A stretch of 64,000 bases of DNA from Halarcobacter sp. Lineage in GTDB: Bacteria; Campylobacterota; Campylobacteria; Campylobacterales; Arcobacteraceae. Position 1 is the first letter of the stretch, and each line of letters begins with the position of its first letter. The notes beneath the pieces were generated by a model that saw nothing but the letters and a program-made list of their open reading frames with translations, was not told the DNA's origin and searched no databases. Shown piece by piece: positions 8,293 through 23,699 of this stretch. The stretch lies in the NCBI RefSeq assembly GCF_963676935.1, contig NZ_OY781470.1, positions 248,001-312,000 of the forward strand. The letters are read 5' to 3'. A program made the translations under genes and the position numbers.

Positions 8293-8308
8293 TAGTTAAA
8301 AACTACTA
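8290..8308. terminator. Bidirectional hairpin shared by dxs and rcpA
   Basis: The bases tagtagtt-aaa-aactacta form a perfect 8-base-pair stem with a 3-base loop. The left arm begins with the dxs stop TAG, and the right arm ends with the mirrored TAG stop of the secretin gene on the other strand. It is AT-rich and has only short T runs, so termination may be partial. Confidence 0.6.
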
Positions 8309-9820
8309 TTCATATCCTAAGATTTCATTAATTCTTTTTTGTTGTCTTTCTTTTGGTGTTAGTTGTTTTTGAGTATTGATTTTAGTAGCAGATTTTTTTT
8401 CTTTTACTGATTCAGTAGAATCTTTTTCATCATTAATAAAAACCTCTTTTTTATATTTCGAAGTGTTTAATATTTTATCTTTCGTATTTTGATAGAGTGT
8501 ATTTTGATTATTATTTGAAGGGTCTACAATTTCAGGTGTGATAAAAAATACAAGTTCACTTTTACCCTCTTTGAAAGCTTTACTAGTAAATATAAAACCA
8601 AGTATAGGAATATCACCTAAAAATGGTATTTTATCAACATCATATGAGTTTTCATTACTTACAAGACCACCTAAAACTATAGTAGCTCCATTTTTTGCTA
8701 ATACATTGGTTACAATTTCTTTTTCTGTAAAACTTGGTATATCATCAACCATATTTGTCCAGTCAATTTCTGTCGAACTTGTTTTTAATTCTAAATCAAC
8801 ATAATTATTTTTCATTACATTCTTAGCTTTTATATCAAGTTGAAGTCCATATTTAACCTCTTCTAAATCAGTTGAAGGAATACCCTCTGCTGTTGTTGTT
8901 TGTGTTTTAATTCTTATAGTTCCCCCAGCATGGAAAGTTGCTTCTTTATTTTCCAAAGTTATTAACGTTGTTTCATCCAAAATGTTTGCAACACCTTCTG
9001 ATTCTAAATATTGTAGTATCATTGAAGTATTAAAATTCTGACTTAAAAAGTTTGCAGCACTAGTAAGCCCCCCAGTTAGAGTCAATGCATTAGACATAAT
9101 TTTATCAAGGGCACCAGTTATATCACCATTAAGTTGTGAAATATGACCAAATTCACTAGATGGATAATAAGTATATTCCCCTTCTTTTTCTTCGGTTGTT
9201 GCATAGTTTCTAACAGAAACAGCCCAATTATTTTTTAAATCTATACCATCATCATTATTTATTTCAACTGCATAAAGTTTAACACGAATCATTTTTGAGG
9301 GAGTTGATGTTTCAATCATATCAACAAGCTTTTCTTCAGTTTTAATACCAGCTTTTTTAAAGGTATCAATTACTAAATCTTTTTCTCTATAATCTTTTAC
9401 ATAACCTTTTAAAATAATTGTATCATTTGCTTGTTCAACAATTAAGTTTGGATAAGTAGCTTTTACAATGGAAATAATTGTATCTAGATTTTGCATAATA
9501 CTAAAGTTTATATGGATTGAATCTCCATTTTCTAGGGTTACTATTGCCCCCTCATTACCAATGTTTTTACCCAATATTTTTAGTTTTGTTAAGGGAGCTT
9601 CAAGACTATCTATAAAATCAGCACTTATATTTTCGCTATTCGTTAATTGGATATTTTTAATTCTAGAATCAAATATCAAAGTTCTATAATTATTAAGTGG
9701 TAAATATATTGTACTATCATGAAAATCTTTTTGATATATCACTTTATCATTAATATCATATGCAAAACTAAAAGATGTTGTGCATAAAAATAAAAATAAA
9801 ACCTTAAAAAAATACTTCAT
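8306..9820 (-). CDS. rcpA: Tad/Flp pilus outer-membrane secretin (RcpA/CpaC type)
   Basis: Forms the outer-membrane channel of the Tad pilus. The 504-residue protein starts with a signal peptide (about 1-20, ending SFA-Y). A BON-like region follows around residues 115-165 (TIILKGYVKDYREKDLV), then a secretin domain with ITLENKEATFHAGG, the long VGLQLDI-type strand region, and the signature VDKIPFLGDIPILGFIF near residue 410. After the secretin domain comes a charged Lys/Gln-rich tail of about 60 residues. It is the last gene of the Tad operon, ten bases after the TadE-like gene, and converges on dxs. Confidence 0.92.
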   Translation of the reverse strand: MKYFFKVLFLFLCTTSFSFAYDINDKVIYQKDFHDSTIYLPLNNYRTLIFDSRIKNIQLTNSENISADFIDSLEAPLTKLKILGKNIGNEGAIVTLENGDSIHINFSIMQNLDTIISIVKATYPNLIVEQANDTIILKGYVKDYREKDLVIDTFKKAGIKTEEKLVDMIETSTPSKMIRVKLYAVEINNDDGIDLKNNWAVSVRNYATTEEKEGEYTYYPSSEFGHISQLNGDITGALDKIMSNALTLTGGLTSAANFLSQNFNTSMILQYLESEGVANILDETTLITLENKEATFHAGGTIRIKTQTTTAEGIPSTDLEEVKYGLQLDIKAKNVMKNNYVDLELKTSSTEIDWTNMVDDIPSFTEKEIVTNVLAKNGATIVLGGLVSNENSYDVDKIPFLGDIPILGFIFTSKAFKEGKSELVFFITPEIVDPSNNNQNTLYQNTKDKILNTSKYKKEVFINDEKDSTESVKEKKSATKINTQKQLTPKERQQKRINEILGYE

Positions 9821-9830
9821 TATGAAACTC

Positions 9831-10268
9831 CTATTCTGTGTATGTTATAGTTAGTGTACATGTAACTGTTCCTGAGCCACTTTCGTTGAAAACTGCTCGC
9901 CTACTAACAATTTGTTGATCATAAAAAGATACTCCACTAGCTAATTGAGTGGAGAAAATAACTTGATAATTTGGTGGAACAATTGAGTTATCAGTATTAC
10001 AAACAACATCACCTGCAGCCACTACATCTATACCATTTACTGACATATTATTAACTCTTGTTACAAAATCATTTATAGTAATAGCACCTGTACCATTAGT
10101 AGAGATTAATCTAGCTCCATAATCACTTATAGCATCCATATTATCTTTCACCCTAGCGATTTTTGAATAATTAATAACAAAAAAGAAAAAAGTAACAAAA
10201 CCTATAAACATTACCATCCATAGTAATATATTTTCAATATAAGCTTTTTTCAAATCTTTTTTTTTCAT
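9831..10268 (-). CDS. TadE-like minor pseudopilin
   Basis: A 145-residue protein with a very short basic N-terminus, then a 20-residue hydrophobic helix (about 14-34, ILLWMVMFIGFVTFFFFVI), then a polar domain. This layout is that of TadE/TadF minor pilins. The N-terminus KKAYIEN aligns with the EKGAMDK of the Flp pilin and the RKAFIDQ of the large adhesin-like protein in the same locus, which suggests cleavage by the same prepilin peptidase. Two cysteines (in VVCNTD and TVTCTLT) could form a disulfide in the exported domain. The start overlaps the rcpC stop by four bases. Confidence 0.7.
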   Translation of the reverse strand: MKKKDLKKAYIENILLWMVMFIGFVTFFFFVINYSKIARVKDNMDAISDYGARLISTNGTGAITINDFVTRVNNMSVNGIDVVAAGDVVCNTDNSIVPPNYQVIFSTQLASGVSFYDQQIVSRRAVFNESGSGTVTCTLTITYTE

Positions 10269-11416
10269 TTTTTCAATTCTTTATATTCAGAAAAAGATAT
10301 CTCTTTTACATCTTTTTTATTTACATAACTACCATCACATAAAATATACCAATTTGGTTGTATTTTAGATCTGCTAACATATGACATTATATAATTTTTA
10401 TGTATCTTACTGTTGATTTTTGCTCTATATGATGGTTTATTTCTTAAATAAATATTATTTGATAAACCAATTAATAAATTATCAGTTTTTGAACATTCAT
10501 TTTTGTACCCTTCAGTAATAGTAGCTTCTTTAACTGTTTTTTTATCTTTATTATCTGCATAAGATATAGTAGCAGTTTTTGTAGAAATTTTATCTTTTGG
10601 ACTATACCATTTAATTGGATAAGTAGGTTTTCTATAAACTACTGGTTTAACAAGTTTTTTCTTTTTAACTACTTTTTTAGGTTTTTCTTTTTCTTTTTCA
10701 TTTTCTTCTTCAAGCTTTGATTTAACCATCCAAAGTTGTTTACCTTTATTATAATCATCAATTAGTTTTAATAATACTTTTTCTTTTATGTCAAGAACAA
10801 TTTCATTAGCTTTTACATTAACTATTTCTTCAACTTGTTGTTTTTTTACAAGTTTTTTAATTTTTTTCTTAAAAATTGCTTTTTCTGATTCTAATCCTTC
10901 ACTTAAAAAACCTAAAACTTTAATATTTTTTGCTATATACTGTACAGCATATTTATTTGTATCTTGCCCTTTGGGATAAACTGATATTATTTTTATAATA
11001 TCATTAGGTTCTAAAGAAAAGTTTGGATTTTCAAAAAGTGTCATTGACATATTGTAACTATTGTATTTAAAATCTAAAGATTTTTCTTTAATAATTTCAA
11101 TTTTATTTGAAAGTTTTTCTTTTAAAAAAGCTTCGTTCTTATATATTGTTTCTTTAGCATATTTACCAAGGATTTCTTGTTTTAACAAGGGTTTTGTTAA
11201 AACAAATTGTCTTGCAATAACAGTTTGTTTAATATGATTCTCACCAATAAGAGTATCTTTATTAATTGTGTCTTTTGCAACAAAAACGTTTACTAATCTA
11301 TTATTGTCTTTTGCAACTTTTTCTTTCTCTTTATAAAAATAGAAAGATATAGCGATTGCTGATAGTAATAAAGATACTAAAACTAAAATAACTGCTAACT
11401 GTTTGTCAAACTTCAT
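10265..11416 (-). CDS. rcpC: RcpC/CpaB-like Tad pilus assembly protein with C-terminal SH3-like domain
   Basis: Periplasmic, membrane-anchored Tad assembly factor of 383 residues. A transmembrane helix lies at about 7-27, a SAF domain at 41-100 (VFVAKDTINKDTLIGENHI), and an RcpC/CpaB core at about 105-230. A Lys/Glu-rich linker (236-262) leads to an SH3b-like domain at about 313-375 (NIYLRNKPSYRAKINSKIHK, then NWYILCDGSYV). Ordinary CpaB proteins are about 250-300 residues and lack this tail, which may contact peptidoglycan. It lies between tadC and the TadE-like gene. Confidence 0.82.
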   Translation of the reverse strand: MKFDKQLAVILVLVSLLLSAIAISFYFYKEKEKVAKDNNRLVNVFVAKDTINKDTLIGENHIKQTVIARQFVLTKPLLKQEILGKYAKETIYKNEAFLKEKLSNKIEIIKEKSLDFKYNSYNMSMTLFENPNFSLEPNDIIKIISVYPKGQDTNKYAVQYIAKNIKVLGFLSEGLESEKAIFKKKIKKLVKKQQVEEIVNVKANEIVLDIKEKVLLKLIDDYNKGKQLWMVKSKLEEENEKEKEKPKKVVKKKKLVKPVVYRKPTYPIKWYSPKDKISTKTATISYADNKDKKTVKEATITEGYKNECSKTDNLLIGLSNNIYLRNKPSYRAKINSKIHKNYIMSYVSRSKIQPNWYILCDGSYVNKKDVKEISFSEYKELKK

Positions 11417-11425
11417 ACTTTTCCT

Positions 11426-12277
11426 TTACATTCCTAAACCTAATTCTAATTCACCAGCCATCATAGGGAAAATTATAAATGCTCCTAATGCTGGTAAAAC
11501 AAATACAAATAAAACTAAAATCAGATACATATTAAGAGTATTAACTTTACCTTTAATTTTATAAAATTTTTCTTGCCTCATCTCATCTGATTGGGTAGAA
11601 AATATATTCTTAACTCCAATTCCTGCTTCTTCACTCAATATTAAAAAATCTACAATTTTTCCTAAATCATCAGAGTCAACTCTTCTTTTTAAATTTTCAT
11701 AAGCTTTTTTTGTTGTGTAATTTGTCATCTCATATTCCAATATGGCTATCTCTTTTAATAACTCCTCATCTAAGATACCATGTGCTCTAGTTGATACTGT
11801 AAAAAAAGCGTTTTTTAAACCACCACCAGCCTCTAAAATTACATTAATTAAATCTAAGAAAACACCTAGATCATTGTTTATTTTTTCTGCTCTTTCATTT
11901 TTTGATATATAAATATATATCTTCCCTCCAAAAATTATTAATAGTATACCAATTATTATGCCAATAACACCAATTAAGGTATTAAATAGTATAGGAAAAG
12001 ATATACCAATAATTAATCCAATTAAAGCAAAGACAAGTTTACCTTCATTGTATTCTTTTTTAGTTAGACCTGCTTGAATTAATTTAAAATAGAATTCTTT
12101 ATCATCCTTTTCATCTGAACTTTTATTTTTTACATCTTTTTGCTGATCGATGATTGCTAAGGCATCAAGTTTTGATAATTGTACAATTTGTTTTTTTTGT
12201 CCTTGTGAATCGTAAATATACCATGCTGCAATAACTATAACTATAACTATAACAGGTAGAAAAAATATTAAATCCAT
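11426..12277 (-). CDS. tadC: Tad pilus inner-membrane platform protein TadC
   Basis: One of the two T2SS-F-like polytopic proteins that couple the TadA ATPase to pilus assembly. The protein has 283 residues, with an N-terminal helix (3-19), a paired helix block at about 84-126, the conserved cytoplasmic T2SSF region (VFLDLINVILEAGGGLKNAFFTV and LGKIVDFLILSEEAGIGVKNIF), and a C-terminal helix near 245-270. The start overlaps the last base of tadB, which implies coupled translation and a TadB-TadC pair. Confidence 0.88.
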   Translation of the reverse strand: MDLIFFLPVIVIVIVIAAWYIYDSQGQKKQIVQLSKLDALAIIDQQKDVKNKSSDEKDDKEFYFKLIQAGLTKKEYNEGKLVFALIGLIIGISFPILFNTLIGVIGIIIGILLIIFGGKIYIYISKNERAEKINNDLGVFLDLINVILEAGGGLKNAFFTVSTRAHGILDEELLKEIAILEYEMTNYTTKKAYENLKRRVDSDDLGKIVDFLILSEEAGIGVKNIFSTQSDEMRQEKFYKIKGKVNTLNMYLILVLFVFVLPALGAFIIFPMMAGELELGLGM

Positions 12278-13206
12278 TATTTAACCTTAGTTAGTAGATT
12301 GTTTACAAATAAACCAAATGCAACCCAAACTGCAATAAAAAACATTTGAATCTGACCTTCATTACTTCCAAAAAAATGTCTATCTAAAACACCATTTAAT
12401 GAACTATCCATCATCTCATAAGTAAAAATTACCAGTCCTATAATCATGTAACTACCAACTTTTATCTCTTTTGTTGATGAAGTAATCTCTTGTTTTATTT
12501 CCCCTTGATCATGAAGTGTTTTTCTTAGTTTTTCTAATGTATTAGAAAACTTACCTCCTGATTGTCTACCAATTGAGATAGTTAGATAAAAAATTCTTAA
12601 TTCTTTTGACTCAACTAATTTAAACATTTTTTCAAAAGCTTTATTTTCACCAATAATATCTTTTTCCATAAGATAGATATTAAAAGTATCTTTTGTAAAT
12701 TTAGATTTTGAAGTCATAACAGCTTTAGTTAGTGATTGTTCAAATCCTACACCACTTTTCATCATACTAGTAACTTTATCAATAATTACTTTTAGTCCAT
12801 AATTAAACTCTTCTTGTCTATTTGAAATAATTTTTTTCAAAACTAAAAGTGGGAAAAAAGCAAATACAATCCAACTAATTGCGAAGACAACAGGATTTGT
12901 AATAGCAAAATTTACAAATGTTGCGGCTAGAAAACCAAAGCCTATTGATATAAATATAAAAATTGGTTCGGAAAGAGGAGATAAAAATCCTGCATAAGAA
13001 AGTTTTTTACCTAACCAATTTCTATCTTTTTTAAATAAACTATTTCTTTTTTTTGCTTCAGCTAAAATCTCATTTTGATCATTTGATAATTTTTTAATAA
13101 TTTTATTTTGTTTATTAAAATTTATTAAATAGTTATATATTAATACAATACTAGTTATTGTTAAAATTGGTATAACTGCTGATAAAATAAGAAATTGAAT
13201 ATCCAT
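12277..13206 (-). CDS. tadB: Tad pilus inner-membrane platform protein TadB
   Basis: The 309-residue T2SS-F family partner of TadC. It has an N-terminal helix (about 5-25), two central helices (about 82-125), the cytoplasmic T2SSF motif VTSMMKSGVGFEQSLTKAV and LTISIGRQSGGKFSNTLEKL, and two C-terminal helices. The gene starts two bases after the tadA stop and shares its last base with tadC. In the Tad machine TadB and TadC form the inner-membrane platform for pilin extraction. That assignment rests on order and domain pattern. Confidence 0.88.
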   Translation of the reverse strand: MDIQFLILSAVIPILTITSIVLIYNYLINFNKQNKIIKKLSNDQNEILAEAKKRNSLFKKDRNWLGKKLSYAGFLSPLSEPIFIFISIGFGFLAATFVNFAITNPVVFAISWIVFAFFPLLVLKKIISNRQEEFNYGLKVIIDKVTSMMKSGVGFEQSLTKAVMTSKSKFTKDTFNIYLMEKDIIGENKAFEKMFKLVESKELRIFYLTISIGRQSGGKFSNTLEKLRKTLHDQGEIKQEITSSTKEIKVGSYMIIGLVIFTYEMMDSSLNGVLDRHFFGSNEGQIQMFFIAVWVAFGLFVNNLLTKVK

Positions 13207-13208
13207 TC

Positions 13209-14828
13209 CTAATAATCCCTACTTATTTTTTGGAAATGTGGCCATTTATGGAATAGTTTTGGATCATTTCTTAAGAAAATATCTAAAAATTCATCTTCCC
13301 ATCCACACATTTTGTTTGGTAAATCTTTTTCTAATTCTTCTATTAACATTGACCTTGGCATTTCAAACTCTTTATCAAAAATAGAAAGATCAATATCTAC
13401 TCCAAACATATTCATTTGAGAAACAGTTCTAGTTGGAGTTGAAACAACTTCAAATGTTCCTTTTGTTTTAGTCATATCACTTGTATCTCTCTTAAATTCA
13501 AAGATATTGTTTAATGAAACAACTGTACCATCTTCAATTCTTTTTTCAACTTCTGAAACAGTGATAACTTTTCTTGTTCCATCAGGGAATCTAACTAATT
13601 GAATGATAATATCAATAGCTGAAACTATTTGTGCCCTAATAAAATTAATATTAGCACTAGGTCTCGCTTCTAAATACATGTTTTCAATTCTAACTAAAGC
13701 TTCTTTTGTATTATCAGCGTGGACTGTAGTCATTGAACCAGGATGCCCTGTATTCATAGCATTAAGCATAACTACAATCTCTCCACCTCTACACTCCCCA
13801 ACTATGATTCTTCTTGGAGATGACCTAAGAGCAGATCTTAATAAAAAATCAAGAGTTATAGCACCTTTCCCCTCTTCATTTGCCATTCTTGCTTCATATT
13901 GTCTAATAGAATTACAAGGCATTTGGGGTTGCATCTCTTTAGTATCTTCAATTACCATAAGTTGTTCATTTGGATCTATAAACCTTGTCATGGCATTTAG
14001 AAATGTAGTTTTACCACTTGATGTACCCCCTGACACAATCATATTACATTTACCTTTAGCAATTTTTAGTAAAAAATAAGCCATTTTGTAATCCATTTGC
14101 CCAGAATCAATAAGTGATTCTAGTAATAATGGCAAGTAATTGAATTTTCTTATTGTTACGCAACTTCCATTATTTGCTGCAATGGGAGGAATTTGAACTT
14201 CTACCCTTGAACCATCTTGTAGTTTACTAGACATAATAGGGTGAGCTTCATCGATTTTTCTATTATTTTCAGCTAACATTTTATCTATAATTTTTCTTAA
14301 TTCATCTTCACTTCTAAAAGTAAAAGGTGTTCTTACAGTTTTACCTTTATAGATAATATCTATATAATCTTTTGTATTTATAATAACATCATTTAATCCA
14401 TCTTTTGCAATATCAAAAATAGTTGTTATTGGCCCATATCCAACTATATTGTTTATAATAAATTCTTTTATCTCTTCTAAAATATCTTTTGGTAATTTAC
14501 TTGCTTGTTTAAAAGATAAAATAAATTCAGGTAAAACTTCTTCTAAAGAATCTCTAACTATTTTTTTATCAGATTTTAAATTTATCATAAAAGTATCATT
14601 TATCTCATATGCTATATTTAATAATTTCTCATTCAAATAAATTTTTGGAAAATCTAGAATTTGATTTTCTGCTTTTTTTCTTTTTACTTTTTCAATTTTC
14701 TCTTCAATATTATCTTCAAAAACAATTTCTGATTCATCTTTTTCTTCTTCTTCATTATACGCAAAAGATTGTTTTTTTATCTCTTTCTTTTGTTCTTCTT
14801 CAGTAATAAGATTTCTTAAATTTCTCAA
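13209..14828 (-). CDS. tadA: Tad pilus assembly ATPase TadA/CpaF
   Basis: Cytoplasmic VirB11-like secretion ATPase that powers Flp pilus assembly. Its length of 539 residues is longer than common TadA because of an acidic/lysine-rich N-terminal segment (about 10-55). The nucleotide site is complete: Walker A GGTSSGKT at 267-274, the Asp box (VIEDTKEMQ), Walker B-like RRIIVGECRGGE, and the His box GHPGSMTTVHADNT. TadZ ends two bases upstream and tadB starts two bases downstream. This gene is the firmest marker that the locus is a Tad system. Confidence 0.95.
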   Translation of the reverse strand: MRNLRNLITEEEQKKEIKKQSFAYNEEEEKDESEIVFEDNIEEKIEKVKRKKAENQILDFPKIYLNEKLLNIAYEINDTFMINLKSDKKIVRDSLEEVLPEFILSFKQASKLPKDILEEIKEFIINNIVGYGPITTIFDIAKDGLNDVIINTKDYIDIIYKGKTVRTPFTFRSEDELRKIIDKMLAENNRKIDEAHPIMSSKLQDGSRVEVQIPPIAANNGSCVTIRKFNYLPLLLESLIDSGQMDYKMAYFLLKIAKGKCNMIVSGGTSSGKTTFLNAMTRFIDPNEQLMVIEDTKEMQPQMPCNSIRQYEARMANEEGKGAITLDFLLRSALRSSPRRIIVGECRGGEIVVMLNAMNTGHPGSMTTVHADNTKEALVRIENMYLEARPSANINFIRAQIVSAIDIIIQLVRFPDGTRKVITVSEVEKRIEDGTVVSLNNIFEFKRDTSDMTKTKGTFEVVSTPTRTVSQMNMFGVDIDLSIFDKEFEMPRSMLIEELEKDLPNKMCGWEDEFLDIFLRNDPKLFHKWPHFQKISRDY

Positions 14829-14830
14829 TT

Positions 14831-16417
14831 TTATTCCTTATTTAAAAATGAAAATATACTTTTTTTAGCTTTTTCTTTAGAAGTAGTTTCACTTATAAAT
14901 TCTTTTGTTTTAAGGATATCTTCTAAAGTTTTTACAAATGGTGAATCTTGCGAAATTTGAGAAGCTAGTTCACAATAATTCCAACATTTACCTAAAGTTT
15001 GATAATCATTTGGAATCTTTAGATAACTTAACTTATCTTCCTTACTACTTGTATTCATTATAGAGTCAAAATCGGAAGATGAAATTTCATTTAATGAATT
15101 AACTCTATTTACTATAAAATTAACTTTATCCTTTAATCCAGCTCTTTTCATAAGTGAATAAAAAGTTTTAAGTTTAGATACATGAGGAAGAGTCATCTCT
15201 GTTAAAACCCAAATCTCATTTACTAAATCATAAATAGTACTTTTAAGTGATGTTGCATCAGATATACCTGCATCTATAATAATATAATTAAAATGCTCAC
15301 TAGCTTTTAAAATATAATCCAGCATCTTCTCTATAAATATTTCTTTTTCAAGTATATCTCTATCAATATGTTTTTGGATACCATTTATTCCATAAAAATT
15401 TTCTCTTATTTTTACAAGTCCTACTTCCATATTTTTTTTTATATCAAAATCATTCATATTTACTAAATCAATAATTGAATAGTTTGGTATGGGATTCTGA
15501 GATAAAAATAGATTACTAATAGCTTTTGTTGTAGCTAAATCTATAAATAGTACATTTTTTGATGGATTATTTCTTGCAATAATATCTGCTGCATTCATTG
15601 AAATAGTTGTTGCTCCAGTTCCCCCGGAAATTCCACTTACTGCAATAATTTTGTTATCATATTTATTTTTATTAATTAGTTTATATTTAGTTTCTAATAT
15701 TATATTTTTTATAAGTTCAGGAGAAAATTCATCTATTGAAACATAATTTTCAATATTTAGTTTTCCACAGGTTAGTGAAAGATTATGATTATTTGGGCCA
15801 ATGACTATAATAAACTCATTGAATTTTCTTAAAAGTTCACTATCATCATTTATTAATTCACCATTTTGTATTGTATAGATAATAATATTTTTTGAGTTTT
15901 TCATATTTAGAATATCAGAAATTTTTGTAATATCATAAATAACATTTATCTCTGCATTTAATAAAATATCCAAATTTGTTTGTAGTTTATTTGCAAATTT
16001 TGTTGTGTTTTTATCTGTTACTATAAATATATTTAATGGAGTATTTTGAGATAGTAAATCTTTTTCAATCTCAAATATTTTTCTTAGTGCAATTCTTGAT
16101 TTTTTTAATAACTCTTTTAATACTTGTCTATACCAAATTTTTCTATTAAATGTAAGTTTACCAAAGATTATATCTCCATCTTTTAATATTATAGAGTATT
16201 TATTATTTATAAAATTAATATCATCTTCTATTACTTCATATCCATTTACAGTAAAACCATAAATAAAATTGTTATATTTAAAATCATATTTTAAAAAAGT
16301 AAGTTTTTGAATGTTTGAGATTAGTACAAATAGTTGTAATATCTCAATTACATTCTCTTTTCTAATATCTAAAGCACCTTGAATATTTGAATATTCTTGA
16401 TATGTTTTATAATCCAT
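14831..16417 (-). CDS. tadZ: Tad pilus localisation ATPase TadZ/CpaE
   Basis: MinD/ParA-family protein that positions Tad machines. The 528-residue chain has an N-terminal region of unknown fold (1 to about 125), a receiver-like domain without clear phosphorylation motifs (about 128-250), and a ParA-like ATPase from about 258. The deviant Walker A reads SGISGGTGATTISMNAAD, with no lysine in the usual GKT position, as in several TadZ proteins. DAGISD later marks the switch region. It lies between the adhesin-like gene and tadA. Confidence 0.88.
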   Translation of the reverse strand: MDYKTYQEYSNIQGALDIRKENVIEILQLFVLISNIQKLTFLKYDFKYNNFIYGFTVNGYEVIEDDINFINNKYSIILKDGDIIFGKLTFNRKIWYRQVLKELLKKSRIALRKIFEIEKDLLSQNTPLNIFIVTDKNTTKFANKLQTNLDILLNAEINVIYDITKISDILNMKNSKNIIIYTIQNGELINDDSELLRKFNEFIIVIGPNNHNLSLTCGKLNIENYVSIDEFSPELIKNIILETKYKLINKNKYDNKIIAVSGISGGTGATTISMNAADIIARNNPSKNVLFIDLATTKAISNLFLSQNPIPNYSIIDLVNMNDFDIKKNMEVGLVKIRENFYGINGIQKHIDRDILEKEIFIEKMLDYILKASEHFNYIIIDAGISDATSLKSTIYDLVNEIWVLTEMTLPHVSKLKTFYSLMKRAGLKDKVNFIVNRVNSLNEISSSDFDSIMNTSSKEDKLSYLKIPNDYQTLGKCWNYCELASQISQDSPFVKTLEDILKTKEFISETTSKEKAKKSIFSFLNKE

Positions 16418-16436: not shown

Positions 16437-18851
16437 CTACTGTAATTCAACTATAAAATTATCTATATATAATACTTCATTTGTACTTGAAACATAGATT
16501 GATAATGATACACCAAGTATTCCATCAGAATCAGTTCTTCCTTCAAGTGAATATGATTTTGATCCATAATTAATAGATCCATAGTAATTACCAAATGATT
16601 CTCTATCAACAAGTAAGTCATTGTTTAAATAAACAGTAAAATAGTCTTGACTACTACCCCAATCTTCCCATCCACCAACAAAGTTTAAATCAAAACTAAC
16701 TGTAACATCTTTATTCGCAAAACTTGGTCCAAAATTAAAAAATCTTCCTGTTGTTTGCCAACGTTTTGTTCTTTTTGCTTGGATTTTTAATTTACCTTCA
16801 TTTGAATCGTATGAATCTCTTATCCATGAACCATATGTAGTATCAAAGCCTTCTTCATCCCTATCAAATGTTAAATTAAAAATTCGTAAATCCACTTCAT
16901 TTATTATTTTTACATTATAACTACTTGTAGTACTCTCTTTACCATCGCTTACTGTAACATTTATTGTTAAAGTACTGCCCACATATCCATTTGGTATTTT
17001 AGTATTTGATGTTATAAGACCATTTTGATTTATACTAAAATAAGAACTAACATTAGTGGTACCATTTAGATATACAGTTATTGAATAGGTTAAATTATCT
17101 CCATCAGCATCTGTAAAGTAAGGACTCACATCAAAACTATAATAGGTATCCTCTTTAACTGTACCATCGGGAATTTCACCTGCTACGGGTTTAGAATTAT
17201 TATCTGTTACTTCAATACTAAATGCTGGTAAGAAAGCTGATAGTTGACCATCTGTTACTGAAATGACAATATTTTCATATAATCCTAAATCTGAACTTGT
17301 GGGAGTTCCTATAAGTTCTCCTGAGTTTTGATTAAAAGAAAGCCAAGAGGGTTTGTTTGAAATACTAAAAGTTAGTATATCATTATCAGGATCAGAAGCT
17401 GTTGGAGTAAAACTGTAATAATTATCTATGTTTATAGTTGAAACAGGTGTACCATAAATAGTAGGTGCATCATTTACTTCATTAATAGTTACATCACAAT
17501 AACCAAACCCTACATCACCACTATTGTCTGTAGCAGTAAATGTTATCCTATCTGTACCATAAAAGTTTAATGCAGGAGTGTAAGTTAATGTTCCATTGTC
17601 ATTTATTATAGTAGTACCATTTTGGGAAGAAGCTTCTGTACTATAAATTGAACCATCTACATCAACAGCATTCCATCCTATCATAGAAGTTGGTGTATCC
17701 TCATTTATAGTTATTGGACAACCTGTAATTGTTACTACTGGATTTTGATTATTCCCACAATTCAATAAAACCACTCCATCTTGACCTACCGTAAAATCAT
17801 TTAGCCGATTAGGTACAGCTATCCTTGTACTATCTAGTACCAAGTCGTTAAAGTCTTGGTCTCCACCGCCATCTAAATCTTCCATTGAATATCTATATTC
17901 ATTATTTGGATCAGTAGTATAATCTATATCATTAGTTGGATCTAAGTCATTATTTAAACTATCTGCATATTCGATAAATTGTTGGTACTTATCATTTGCA
18001 TCTCCAGATAAATTATTTATGTAGTTGTTATAAGTATCCCAAATACTCTTAGGGATAATTTGAAAATGGGCATAATTACCATCTCCATTTAAACTTTCGT
18101 GTTCAAAATATATGTGAGTATCATTGACAGTTTTATTATTTAGTGTTACTGTAGGATTACTAGTTGCACCCATACAGTGATTCATTGTAATTGAGTCGGT
18201 AACAGCAGGATAATCATTGTAACCATTTTTAAAAGTATTGTATCCATCTGATATAATAAAAGTAAAAGTTGGTGGAGTTGTAAATTGTGAACCTATAGAA
18301 TCACCTTCATTAGGCCTTTTTGAATTTTCCAAAATTAGTTGAGGATTTTGTACGCAACCATTATTATCTAAGGTATAAGTACCAACCATATTAGTGTAAC
18401 CAGCATTTTCACCACCAAAAGTCAAGTTTACATTTAATGGAGTTGTAACTCCTTCTTGAGCAGAAAATGGACCAATTGTAAATGAATCTTTATCCATAAA
18501 CTTATACCAAAAAGTTTGGTAATCATATGCTCCAAATGTAGTTCTAATAGTGTCAGGTTGTAAATCTCCAGTTGTATCAAGCCAAGTATAATTTACTAAA
18601 CCATTATTAAGAAGAAAATTACCTAAATTTGTTTGTCTTAGAATATTATTATTTATATCTTGTGCTGTACACATATCCATTTGTAAAGCGTAATATTCTG
18701 AAATAGAGTGAGATGAAGCTCTAGCTAAAGATTGCAAATCCTCCATTTTATTTCTTATTATAGTTTCATCACTAACAGTTGCTACAAAAAATACAACACC
18801 CATTAACAAAAGAAAGCCAAAAAACATTTGGTCAATAAAAGCTTTTCTCAT
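16437..18851 (-). CDS. Large pseudopilin-like adhesin of the Tad locus (DUF4114, Ig-like and jelly-roll-like regions)
   Basis: An 804-residue protein in the TadG position. The N-terminus RKAFIDQ followed by a hydrophobic helix (about 8-26) resembles the other pilin-like proteins of the locus. Then come a DUF4114-like region (about 195-345, motif MEDLDGGGDQDFNDLVL), a cadherin/tandem-95-like domain (about 370-460), a He_PIG-type domain (about 465-548), another Ig-like domain (about 553-652), and a jelly-roll-like C-terminal region (about 655-804). DxDxD-type acidic loops suggest calcium binding. It lacks the vWA domain of classical TadG. A pilus-borne or pilus-tip adhesin is the best inference. 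Confidence 0.75.
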   Translation of the reverse strand: MRKAFIDQMFFGFLLLMGVVFFVATVSDETIIRNKMEDLQSLARASSHSISEYYALQMDMCTAQDINNNILRQTNLGNFLLNNGLVNYTWLDTTGDLQPDTIRTTFGAYDYQTFWYKFMDKDSFTIGPFSAQEGVTTPLNVNLTFGGENAGYTNMVGTYTLDNNGCVQNPQLILENSKRPNEGDSIGSQFTTPPTFTFIISDGYNTFKNGYNDYPAVTDSITMNHCMGATSNPTVTLNNKTVNDTHIYFEHESLNGDGNYAHFQIIPKSIWDTYNNYINNLSGDANDKYQQFIEYADSLNNDLDPTNDIDYTTDPNNEYRYSMEDLDGGGDQDFNDLVLDSTRIAVPNRLNDFTVGQDGVVLLNCGNNQNPVVTITGCPITINEDTPTSMIGWNAVDVDGSIYSTEASSQNGTTIINDNGTLTYTPALNFYGTDRITFTATDNSGDVGFGYCDVTINEVNDAPTIYGTPVSTINIDNYYSFTPTASDPDNDILTFSISNKPSWLSFNQNSGELIGTPTSSDLGLYENIVISVTDGQLSAFLPAFSIEVTDNNSKPVAGEIPDGTVKEDTYYSFDVSPYFTDADGDNLTYSITVYLNGTTNVSSYFSINQNGLITSNTKIPNGYVGSTLTINVTVSDGKESTTSSYNVKIINEVDLRIFNLTFDRDEEGFDTTYGSWIRDSYDSNEGKLKIQAKRTKRWQTTGRFFNFGPSFANKDVTVSFDLNFVGGWEDWGSSQDYFTVYLNNDLLVDRESFGNYYGSINYGSKSYSLEGRTDSDGILGVSLSIYVSSTNEVLYIDNFIVELQ

Positions 18852-18876: not shown

Positions 18877-19314
18877 TTACATTATATTATAAATGTCCAT
18901 AAACTCGTTTATCTTTACTATAATTACAGATAAAAAAATAGCAGGAGCCATTGGAGCTACTCTTCTTTTTTTTATCTTTTGGTAATAAAGTAAAAAAATT
19001 GTTTGAACTATACCCGTTACTATTAAGAAAATTGGTATAGAAATTGGTTGTAGATATAAAGTTATTACTAAAATATATTTTATATCTCCGCCACCTAAAA
19101 TCATTTTAGGCATTAAAAGAATAATTGTAACAAAAAAAAGTAAAAATATTATTAAAATAATAAAAGAATAAATTATTAGTTTATTTTCTAGAAAACCAAA
19201 AATTATTAGAAATATTGAAAGTGTGACTATCATCACATTAGGAATTTTATATCTTGTAAAGTCTATATAAGATATAAAAAATGAAAAAATAAAAAATGAT
19301 AAATGAAAAATCAT
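18877..19314 (-). CDS. tadV: Tad prepilin peptidase TadV/CpaA
   Basis: Aspartyl inner-membrane peptidase that removes the leader from Flp and Tad pseudopilins. The 145-residue protein is the short type without the N-methylation domain. The two catalytic aspartates are in YIDFTRYKIPN (near residue 17) and GGGDIKYI (near residue 78), and several hydrophobic helices span the chain. It lies after flp, separated from it by two hairpins, and before the adhesin-like gene. Confidence 0.9.
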   Translation of the reverse strand: MIFHLSFFIFSFFISYIDFTRYKIPNVMIVTLSIFLIIFGFLENKLIIYSFIILIIFLLFFVTIILLMPKMILGGGDIKYILVITLYLQPISIPIFLIVTGIVQTIFLLYYQKIKKRRVAPMAPAIFLSVIIVKINEFMDIYNIM

Positions 19315-19363: not shown

Positions 19364-19382
19364 TGATTAGTAAAACTAATCA
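19364..19382 (-). other. Hairpin overlapping the flp stop codon
   Basis: tgattagt and actaatca pair perfectly around aaa. The TGA stop of flp is the first codon of the hairpin on the minus strand. It lies 12 bases from the larger hairpin, so the pilin message ends in two tandem stems. Confidence 0.55.
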
Positions 19383-19580
19383 GTTACCACCATTTGCATC
19401 ATCTATTGCACCTTGTATTGCCTGACCAGCACTATCTTGTACACCAGCACTTTCATCAGTAATCCATTGGTTAAGCCCTACAACTGCACCAACACCAACA
19501 ATAACTAAAAGAAGTGTTACAAGAATTTTATCCATTGCACCTTTTTCAGACTTTAATCTTCGTTTTAAGAATTCTAACAT
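19380..19580 (-). CDS. flp: Flp-family major pilin (atypical processing site)
   Basis: A 66-residue prepilin and the probable main subunit of the Tad pilus. The leader MLEFLKRRLKSEKG is basic and ends in glycine 14; the mature form would start AMDKILV and continue into a hydrophobic helix (about 19-36). The classical Flp Glu-Tyr at +5/+6 is missing, and the first acidic residue is Asp at +3. The C-terminal part is polar and acidic. A strong aaggag lies before the ATG. It is the first gene of the locus, behind a 173-base AT-rich spacer that must hold the promoter. Confidence 0.85.
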   Translation of the reverse strand: MLEFLKRRLKSEKGAMDKILVTLLLVIVGVGAVVGLNQWITDESAGVQDSAGQAIQGAIDDANGGN

Positions 19581-21656: not shown

Positions 21657-22583
21657 TTGAATATATTATTAATAATTTTAGGGAAAATCTTTCCTTTATA
21701 TATAACAATACTTGCAGGCTATCTTTTAACAAGATTTTTTAAAATAAAAAGGGAACAAATAGCTTTTTTATTAGTGTATATCTTAGGACCTGTTGTTATA
21801 TTTTTTGCAGTTTTATCTATTGAGATAAATTTTCAATTGATATTTTTGCCACTTTTTATATTTTTATTTGGTACTACTATCGCTTTTTATATATTAAAAA
21901 AGTATAAAAATGAATGGAATGATGCCAGCGTTAATACCTTGGCTTTTACTTGTGGAACAGGAAACACTGGATATTTTGGTATCCCTTTAGCTATGATTTT
22001 ATTAGAACCAAATGCTGCAAATATTTTTATTTTTGGAACATTGGCTTCTTTATTATATGAAAATACTACAGGGTTTTATGTAACTGCAAAGGGAAGTTTT
22101 ACAGCAAGAGAATCTATAATGAAGATTTTAAAATTGCCATTACTTTATGCTTTTATTGCAGGAGTTATTTTTAATATACTTGGATTTAGAACACCTGAAT
22201 TTATTGTTCCATATTTTGAAAATTTTAAATGGGCTTATGGTTTATTAGGTATGATGATGCTTGGTATGGGGATGAAAGGGTTTAATATCCATGAGGATTT
22301 TGATAGAAAGTATATAAGAATCTCTTACTTTTTTAAATTTATATTTTGGCCAGGGGTTATTTTGGCAATAATATTTATAGATAAAACATTTATAAACTTT
22401 TTAAATGATGAGATATATAAAGTTATGTTTTTATTTTCAATAGTACCTTTAGCTGGAAATACAGTAACCCTAGCAGTTTTACTAAAAGCAAAACCTGAAA
22501 AAGCTTCCTTTACTGTACTTCTTTCAACTTTAATTTCTATAGTTTATATACCTGTAGTTTTAGCTTTGTATGGTGGATTTTAA
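21657..22583 (+). CDS. AEC-family (auxin efflux carrier-like) permease
   Basis: Inner-membrane transporter of 308 residues with about ten helices. The TTG start at 21657 has aggaa about seven bases upstream. The pattern LAGYLLTRFFKIKREQIA, LAFTCGTGNTGYFGIPLA and the C-terminal PLAGNTVTLAVLLKAKPEKA is that of AEC proteins, which in bacteria often export or import small organic acids such as malate. It probably forms a unit with the preceding permease. The stop codon overlaps that of the convergent NlpC/P60 gene in ttaa. Confidence 0.8.
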   Translation: MNILLIILGKIFPLYITILAGYLLTRFFKIKREQIAFLLVYILGPVVIFFAVLSIEINFQLIFLPLFIFLFGTTIAFYILKKYKNEWNDASVNTLAFTCGTGNTGYFGIPLAMILLEPNAANIFIFGTLASLLYENTTGFYVTAKGSFTARESIMKILKLPLLYAFIAGVIFNILGFRTPEFIVPYFENFKWAYGLLGMMMLGMGMKGFNIHEDFDRKYIRISYFFKFIFWPGVILAIIFIDKTFINFLNDEIYKVMFLFSIVPLAGNTVTLAVLLKAKPEKASFTVLLSTLISIVYIPVVLALYGGF

Positions 22584-23185
22584 TTAATCACTCTTTTTGA
22601 AGTCCAATAGGCTTTTTTATAAAAAGGTTTATTTAGTTTTGTAACTTTTACCCCTTTTATTGAAGCGTGCATAAACTCTCCATGTCCTATATAGATACCC
22701 ACGTGTCTGTCAATTTTTCCTGTTTTGAAAAATATTAAGTCTCCAAGTTTTAGTTCAGCTTTTTTTACTGTTTTCCCAACTTTAACTTGTGTTCTAGTAG
22801 TTCTTGGAATTTTTAAATTAAATTTTTCTTTAAAAACTTTTTGGGTAAAAGCTGAACAGTCGATACCTTTTTTTGTATCTCCCCCAAACTTATATTTTAC
22901 ACCCTTCCATTCATTATAAAACTCCATTAAGGCTGCTTCTACATGGGCTAGTTGTTTTTGTTTTTCAAGAACTTTTTTAGGTTTTTGTAAAATCTTTTTA
23001 TATTCATTGTTTGAAATAATCTCTTGGTAATCTAAATTGGTAATTAAATTCTTGTCTAAATTTGGATTTGTCTCAAGTACAGCATATTCACTCATATCGC
23101 TAGCTACTACATATTTTTGGTTATTTGATGCACAACCTGTTATAACTATTGATATTAATAAAAGTAACAATAAGTTTTTTATCAT
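22580..23185 (-). CDS. NlpC/P60-family lipoprotein (first of a tandem pair)
   Basis: Predicted peptidoglycan endopeptidase of 201 residues. The signal peptide ends in the lipobox VITGC with lipidated Cys18. A region of about 65 residues precedes the NlpC/P60 domain (about 85-200). That domain has Cys110 in GIDCSAF, His161 in RHVGIYIG and His173 in EFMHAS. It is immediately downstream of a shorter paralogue, 16 bases apart, and probably cotranscribed with it. It acts in the periplasm, cleaving stem-peptide bonds. Confidence 0.88.
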   Translation of the reverse strand: MIKNLLLLLLISIVITGCASNNQKYVVASDMSEYAVLETNPNLDKNLITNLDYQEIISNNEYKKILQKPKKVLEKQKQLAHVEAALMEFYNEWKGVKYKFGGDTKKGIDCSAFTQKVFKEKFNLKIPRTTRTQVKVGKTVKKAELKLGDLIFFKTGKIDRHVGIYIGHGEFMHASIKGVKVTKLNKPFYKKAYWTSKRVIN

Positions 23186-23201
23186 ATAAAAATGGGCTCC
23201 T

Positions 23202-23699
23202 TTAGTATAATACTCTTTTTATTTTCCAGAGATGCTTTGAATAATATGGGTTATTCAGCCTAGAGATAATAACCCCTTTTTTTGTGGATACATGCATAAA
23301 TTTTCCATTTTTTAAATATATGCCTACATGGTTTGTTTTAAATCCTGTTTTGAAGAATATTAAATCACCAGTTGCCAATTTATCTAGTTCAACCTCTTTA
23401 CCTAATTTTTTTTGTAAAGTAGTTGTTCTTGGAATATCTATAAAAAGTTGCTCTTTAAATGTTCTTTGAACAAATGCTGAACAATCTATTCCACTTTTTG
23501 AATAGCCACCATATTTATATTTTACACCTCTCCAATCTCTATATTGTGTTAGTAAATTATCATAAATTTTGTTATAATCTAAATTATTCGAGAGTTTATT
23601 ATACTTATTGTAATCAATATCTGATATAGTTTTTGTACTACATCCTTGAAAGATTAAAATTAGTGTAAAAATAATAAACTTTAAAATAAAACTTTTCAC
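23202..23699 (-). CDS. NlpC/P60-family lipoprotein (second of a tandem pair)
   Basis: A 165-residue paralogue of the neighbouring lipoprotein. The signal peptide ends in IFQGC with lipidated Cys20. The catalytic set is Cys73 in GIDCSAFVQR, His124 in NHVGIYL and His136 in FMHVS. It lacks the longer spacer between lipobox and catalytic domain found in the sister protein. The shared sequence WRGVKYKYGG versus WKGVKYKFGG and IPRTT in both shows a duplication. Confidence 0.87.
   Translation of the reverse strand: MKSFILKFIIFTLILIFQGCSTKTISDIDYNKYNKLSNNLDYNKIYDNLLTQYRDWRGVKYKYGGYSKSGIDCSAFVQRTFKEQLFIDIPRTTTLQKKLGKEVELDKLATGDLIFFKTGFKTNHVGIYLKNGKFMHVSTKKGVIISRLNNPYYSKHLWKIKRVLY

Follow-up and report, generated by a model that had tools for sequence, protein, structure and literature searches.

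A putative modular Tad tip pilin of Halarcobacter and its co-segregation with the secretin and a small partner pilin

What does an 804-residue protein that joins a pilin-type N-terminus to adhesin-like domains contribute to a Tad pilus, and where on the fibre would it act? The question is raised by an open reading frame at positions 16437..18851 on the minus strand of the window, a 64,000-nucleotide stretch of a Halarcobacter genome that consists of a single contig of 3.1 Mb. The frame has an ATG start and no internal stops. Its product is 85% identical to the nearest relative over the full length (80–87% for each domain), and because this identity extends from end to end we consider the ORF a conserved gene; a chance ORF or frame artefact is thereby ruled out. 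Relatives were collected by whole-genome searches together with an alignment of TadZ, and the named relatives of the Tad locus are mainly Arcobacter, Halarcobacter and Aliarcobacter MAGs. No relatives were retrieved from the species genomes by a single-sequence search or from phage records by a further search, and viral contigs searched with TadZ gave no matches. With a probability of about 0.7, we assign the gene to the modular Tad minor pilins of the TadG/KilN/CpaL kind, presenting a putative lectin-like adhesin at the pilus tip.

The gene lies in a compact operon whose members all point in the same direction, on the minus strand. Upstream of it are the genes for the 66-aa major pilin Flp (19380..19580), which is conserved in related loci, and for a 145-aa TadV-type prepilin peptidase (18877..19314; Peptidase_A24, Pfam E 1.5e-9). 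Downstream follow a TadZ/CpaE-like ATPase, recognized by a weak AAA_31/CbiA match and its conserved position (14831..16417), the TadA ATPase (13209..14828; T2SSE 3.3e-44, TIGR03819 4e-66), the platform proteins TadB (12277..13206; T2SSF 7.2e-7) and TadC (11426..12277; T2SSF 1.4e-7), a CpaB/RcpC-like protein with a TIGR03177 match below cut-off (10265..11416; 2.8e-6), a TadE-like small minor pilin of 145 residues (9831..10268) and the secretin that forms the outer-membrane gate (8306..9820; Secretin 1.5e-40). Flp is present in nearly every complete related locus. In classical tad loci, tadG comes after tadE/tadF. Here the gene sits between tadV and tadZ, as it does in nearly all related loci, so that the sequence-only reading was loose in assigning it to the TadG position; the exception is G051, in which it is found ~5 kb past the secretin end of the locus. 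Close to the operon, at 22580-23699, we observed a tandem pair of adjoining NlpC/P60 peptidase genes. The locus of G020 carries an insertion-like 460-residue ORF between tadB and tadC (L069 11674-13056), and its tadC is without the first 33 residues.

The first 130 residues of the 804-aa protein (18462..18851, minus strand) constitute what we call the stem: a K-A-F-I-D-Q leader motif, a helix spanning residues 2-57 and the start of a beta-rich, pilin-like head. The stem is kept in all 25 family members and is the best-conserved part of the family. An N-terminal motif of the type K-[AG]-x-[IVM]-[DE]-[QNK]-[ILMVF] occurs in 20/29 Flp, 22/23 TadE-like and 18/24 stem proteins; it is absent from the 384 further sequences compared in these loci, 218 other ORFs and 166 machinery proteins, a contrast that is descriptive because the pattern was derived from these same pilins. 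Profiles of the stem and of the TadE-like proteins align over 54 columns with an E-value of 5e-7. Motif and profile match together suggest, at the level of sequence, that Flp, TadE-like and stem proteins share one peptidase and one fibre. The pilin-like N-terminus that had been read from the sequence is thus borne out by the helix in the AlphaFold model and by the motif held in common with the other pilins. The leader motif departs from the usual G-X4-E pattern in having its acid at +3, and the stem has alanine at -1. The cleavage region of Flp, here and in related loci, likewise places its acid at +3 (KG-AMDKI), where a glutamate at +5 would be usual; the spacing in the tip pilins and the TadE-like pilins is that of Flp. 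Neither PF13400 (Tad) nor PF07811 (TadE) was matched above cut-off in the genome or in the 25 family members.

How closely the stem is tied to the Tad system was apparent from its distribution. At a threshold of E <=1e-45, the family profile found a stem homologue in exactly 27 of 104 family genomes, namely those with this Tad system (defined by a TadA match at E <1e-200), and in none of the 77 genomes without it; as the genomes are related, these 27 co-occurrences are not independent events. Within the genus the distribution is patchy, TadA and the stem gene being both present in 11/16 genomes and both missing from 5/16. The pilus linkage claimed at the outset accordingly stands, on the operon and on 27/27 genomes; the protein is hardly giant, 804 residues being large for a pilin only. 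Because the stem is present wherever this Tad system is, it is itself taken to be the TadG-type tip pilin. To describe the protein as replacing TadG is therefore misleading, since only the passenger differs, and a TadG-type tip with another passenger is the better wording.

Beyond residue 130 the family proteins vary, and three passenger classes are found behind one stem. Most loci carry a short form with a total length of 314-361 residues. A medium form, in which the stem is followed by a DUF4114-type region (366-468 residues), occurs in G006, G007, G013, G014, G057, G091 and G101, and the long Ig/jelly-roll form (804-846 residues) in five genomes (G000, G015, G012, G008 and G002). Additional stem proteins are encoded as a tandem pair in G101, by two off-locus genes in G008 and by one gene each in G050, G056 and G057. 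The off-locus stem-bearing pilin genes, among them L083 450-2638 (G008), L146 (G057), L147 (G050) and L149 (G056), may provide alternative tips.

The passenger of the 804-aa protein includes a probable DUF4114 region at residues 263-342 (17826..18065). In this protein alone, the PF13448 match (residues 263-339) remains below cut-off, at 19.8 versus 27 bits; the assignment is upheld by 7 of 25 homologues that match the family (best E 1.2e-5) and by an acidic signature of the EDLDGGGDQDFND type that is retained in the long forms. Next come three Ig/cadherin-like domains, each supported by Pfam, the AlphaFold model and fold matches: domain 1 at residues 367-452 (17496..17753; Big_9 at 368-447, E 2.6e-19), domain 2 at 459-550 (17202..17477; He_PIG at 463-548, E 3.1e-12) and domain 3 at 551-652 (16896..17201; Cadherin_4 at 545-611, E 2.8e-10), all three Pfam matches being above cut-off. 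The full-length model (mean pLDDT 76.9) consists of the helix, a beta-rich stem and body with strands at 86-174 and three well-predicted sandwiches at 367-653; its domain arrangement is unreliable, as pTM is 0.39. Fold matches to the sandwiches include many cadherins and, in the staphylococcal adhesin SraP, the cadherin-like repeats (Z 11.6 over 174 residues, rmsd 5.0). No vWA match was found by Pfam in the 804-aa protein or among the 25 family members. Of the features noted from the sequence, the three Ig-like domains and the missing vWA domain were thus recovered, and the DUF4114-like region is supported through its homologues.

Residues 655-804 (16440..16889) form the C-terminal domain. A separate model of the C-terminal 160 residues, built on an alignment of only three sequences, is of moderate confidence (pLDDT 64, pTM 0.65) and all-beta, with 11 strands. 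It resembles the jelly rolls of MAM, CBM4, CBM22, CBM27 and ephrin-receptor domains (Z 10-11.3, rmsd ~3.2), the matches covering 125-144 of the 160 modelled residues. The jelly-roll-like C-terminus of the sequence-only reading therefore agrees with the predicted fold. By sequence, the family profile matched no solved structure, and the C-terminal domain alone gave antibody matches at chance level only. With moderate confidence, we regard the modelled domain as a jelly roll of the CBM/MAM type and, at most, as a putative carbohydrate binder.

The C-terminal domain recurs in large ORFs (~900-4400 residues) of other genomes, including two with Ig/cadherin repeats, L131 3-5990 (G087) and L126 1-3567 (G050). 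In the L131 ORF, which is open-ended at 1995 residues, a DUF4114 match above cut-off occurs together with Big/cadherin repeats and an AFP_2 repeat of the antifreeze type. Such ORFs thus have the C-terminal domain, DUF4114 and Big_9/cadherin in common with the 804-aa protein; unlike the latter, the large ORFs lie outside the Tad locus and the pilin stem was not detected in them. It follows that the passenger modules are common to the pilus protein and to large surface-type proteins.

Does the rest of the machine change along with the passenger? We compared the five long-class genomes with three medium-class genomes that belong to the same genus and have a complete locus, so that the following rests on eight genomes of one genus. 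For Flp, TadV, TadZ, TadA, TadB, TadC and CpaB, identity between the classes is about the same as inside the long class. Secretin identity is 63% inside the long class versus 46% between classes, and for the TadE-like pilin the values are 48% and 39%. Of the 26 ways to split the eight genomes, division by tip class comes out on top when either the secretin or the TadE-like pilin is considered, and takes ranks between 6th and 22nd with TadA, TadB, TadC, TadZ and CpaB; this split was chosen after the proteins had been seen, so a fresh sample is needed. The long class forms a single clade in the trees of the secretin (100/100) and the TadE-like pilin (99/98). It is not one clade in the concatenated TadZ/A/B/C tree, with a borderline AU p of 0.038 on a smaller core set, and the stem alone recovers it in only 15% of bootstraps. 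Class-specific stretches of the secretin comprise residues 27-186, which would correspond to its periplasmic N-domains, and 304-381, within the secretin domain.

Species ancestry as the cause of this pattern was ruled out by alaS (AU p 0.0022) and dxs (AU p 0.004), both of which reject a clade of long-form genomes and group G012 with its medium-form relatives. In G012, Flp, TadV, TadZ, TadA and TadB are nearer to medium-form loci; its tip stem (best identity 49 versus 36%), TadE-like pilin (53 versus 43%) and secretin (68 versus 48%) are nearer to long-form than to medium-form loci. Simple linkage we judged insufficient, because the two co-segregating blocks are separated by five genes, from tadZ to cpaB, that follow neither of them. 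The pattern is broken by G091, which pairs a DUF4114 tip with a different secretin lineage. At the sequence level, the co-segregation of long tip, TadE-like partner and secretin within the genus suggests a matched tip-gate set. That tip classes are exchanged as such a three-gene set, with motor and major pilin staying in place, as the tip complex docks in the secretin, is a tentative proposal to which we give slightly less than even odds. In the literature, covered incompletely, we did not find this co-segregation reported, and found little on Tad pili in Arcobacteraceae; it may be the part of our analysis that specialists do not expect.

On the computed domains, linkage, co-occurrence, shared motif and co-segregation, we propose the following route for the 804-aa protein. 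TadV would trim a short leader at the K-A/F-I-D-Q motif, and helix and stem would then join the small TadE-like pilin, the likely tip partner, in a priming complex under which TadA/B/C extend Flp. With Flp extended beneath it, the complex would leave the secretin first and end at the tip. For Kil, CpaL and type IVa tips, tip-first extension primed by a complex of minor pilins has been published as a model (PMC12075869, PMC12607857). The three Ig/cadherin domains may serve as a spacer, and DUF4114, probably in a calcium-dependent manner, and the terminal CBM-like jelly roll would contact the ligand, for which a surface glycan is the likeliest candidate; in Myxococcus, the DUF4114 of the pilus protein PilY1.1 has been implicated in calcium-dependent exopolysaccharide use (PMC9109919). 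On this view the stem would be the invariant part used for docking, specificity would be determined by the passenger, and within the genus the tip would be swapped together with a matching partner pilin and secretin. For CpaL, the tip has been proposed to operate via the secretin (PMC12607857), an idea that the co-segregation fits.

Other roles for the protein have to be weighed against a place at the tip. The Tad machine might act as a secretion device; the protein would then be an adhesin linked to a pseudopilin, either released from the cell or retained on its outer surface, and no part of a pilus tip. Type II-like machines export proteins via secretins, and large non-pilus ORFs do contain DUF4114, Ig and C-terminal domains; what the family conserves most is nevertheless the pilin-type N-terminus with the stem, and hardly any complete locus is without Flp, and we regard secretion as highly improbable. 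An inner-membrane assembly factor, which would keep its C-terminal domains in the periplasm and aid pilus assembly, is conceivable in that an uncleaved N-terminal helix would anchor the protein in the membrane and TadG itself is little characterised (PMC12307814). Ig and CBM-like domains, however, typify exposed adhesins, the passenger is highly variable and the machinery is not, and the N-terminal motif of the stem is also that of Flp, all of which makes this role quite improbable.

The sequence-only reading had left tip and shaft side by side. As a modular pilin along the shaft, the protein would decorate the fibre in many adhesin copies without capping it; it possesses the required kind of helix and stem, and a flexible linker could allow a modular pilin within the shaft (PMC8179133). 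A 670-residue passenger would nonetheless be bulky on a fibre of 66-residue Flp subunits, and proteins of this kind occupy the tip in the models of KilN, TadG and CpaL (PMC12075869, PMC12607857). We therefore consider a shaft location unlikely and a tip adhesin the best reading.

Modular pilus tips are already known. Comparison of natural tip swaps that are accompanied by a matching secretin and partner pilin supplies evidence for an interface between tip and gate, of the kind suggested for Caulobacter CpaL and CpaC (PMC12607857), and the two class-specific secretin segments are named candidates for it. Carrying on a pilin adhesin modules that also occur in large surface-type ORFs is, moreover, a possible route by which marine Arcobacter-type bacteria alter their attachment targets.

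The closest parallels are the TadG-type/KilN tips of Myxococcus (PMC12075869), large Tad minor pilins with a pilin-like base, a variable C-terminal domain, small partner pilins and extra paralogues in some genomes; the additional stem proteins described above recall their alternative Kil tips. Our protein differs from them in its passenger of DUF4114, three Ig domains and a jelly roll, in the single small partner pilin seen in the locus, in a stem without a PF13400 match and in the position of the gene between tadV and tadZ. Caulobacter CpaL (PMC12607857) likewise fuses a Tad pilin-like module to a large adhesion-type module, with a proposed tip complex and secretin link, but has a vWA domain with a MIDAS, which we did not find in the 804-aa protein. 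In Streptococcus sanguinis PilB/PilC (PMC8179133), too, a functional module is grafted onto a pilin, and He_PIG (PF05345) is among the frequent passengers of modular pilins (PMC8179133); these proteins belong to Gram-positive type IVa pili and differ in pilin family and in modules (vWA, lectin). Finally, the DUF4114 of Myxococcus PilY1.1 and PilY1.2 (PMC9109919, PMC13190605) has a Ca-binding signature and is proposed to bind polysaccharide; it, too, sits on a pilus-associated adhesin, in that case a non-pilin with a C-terminal beta-propeller from type IVa pili.
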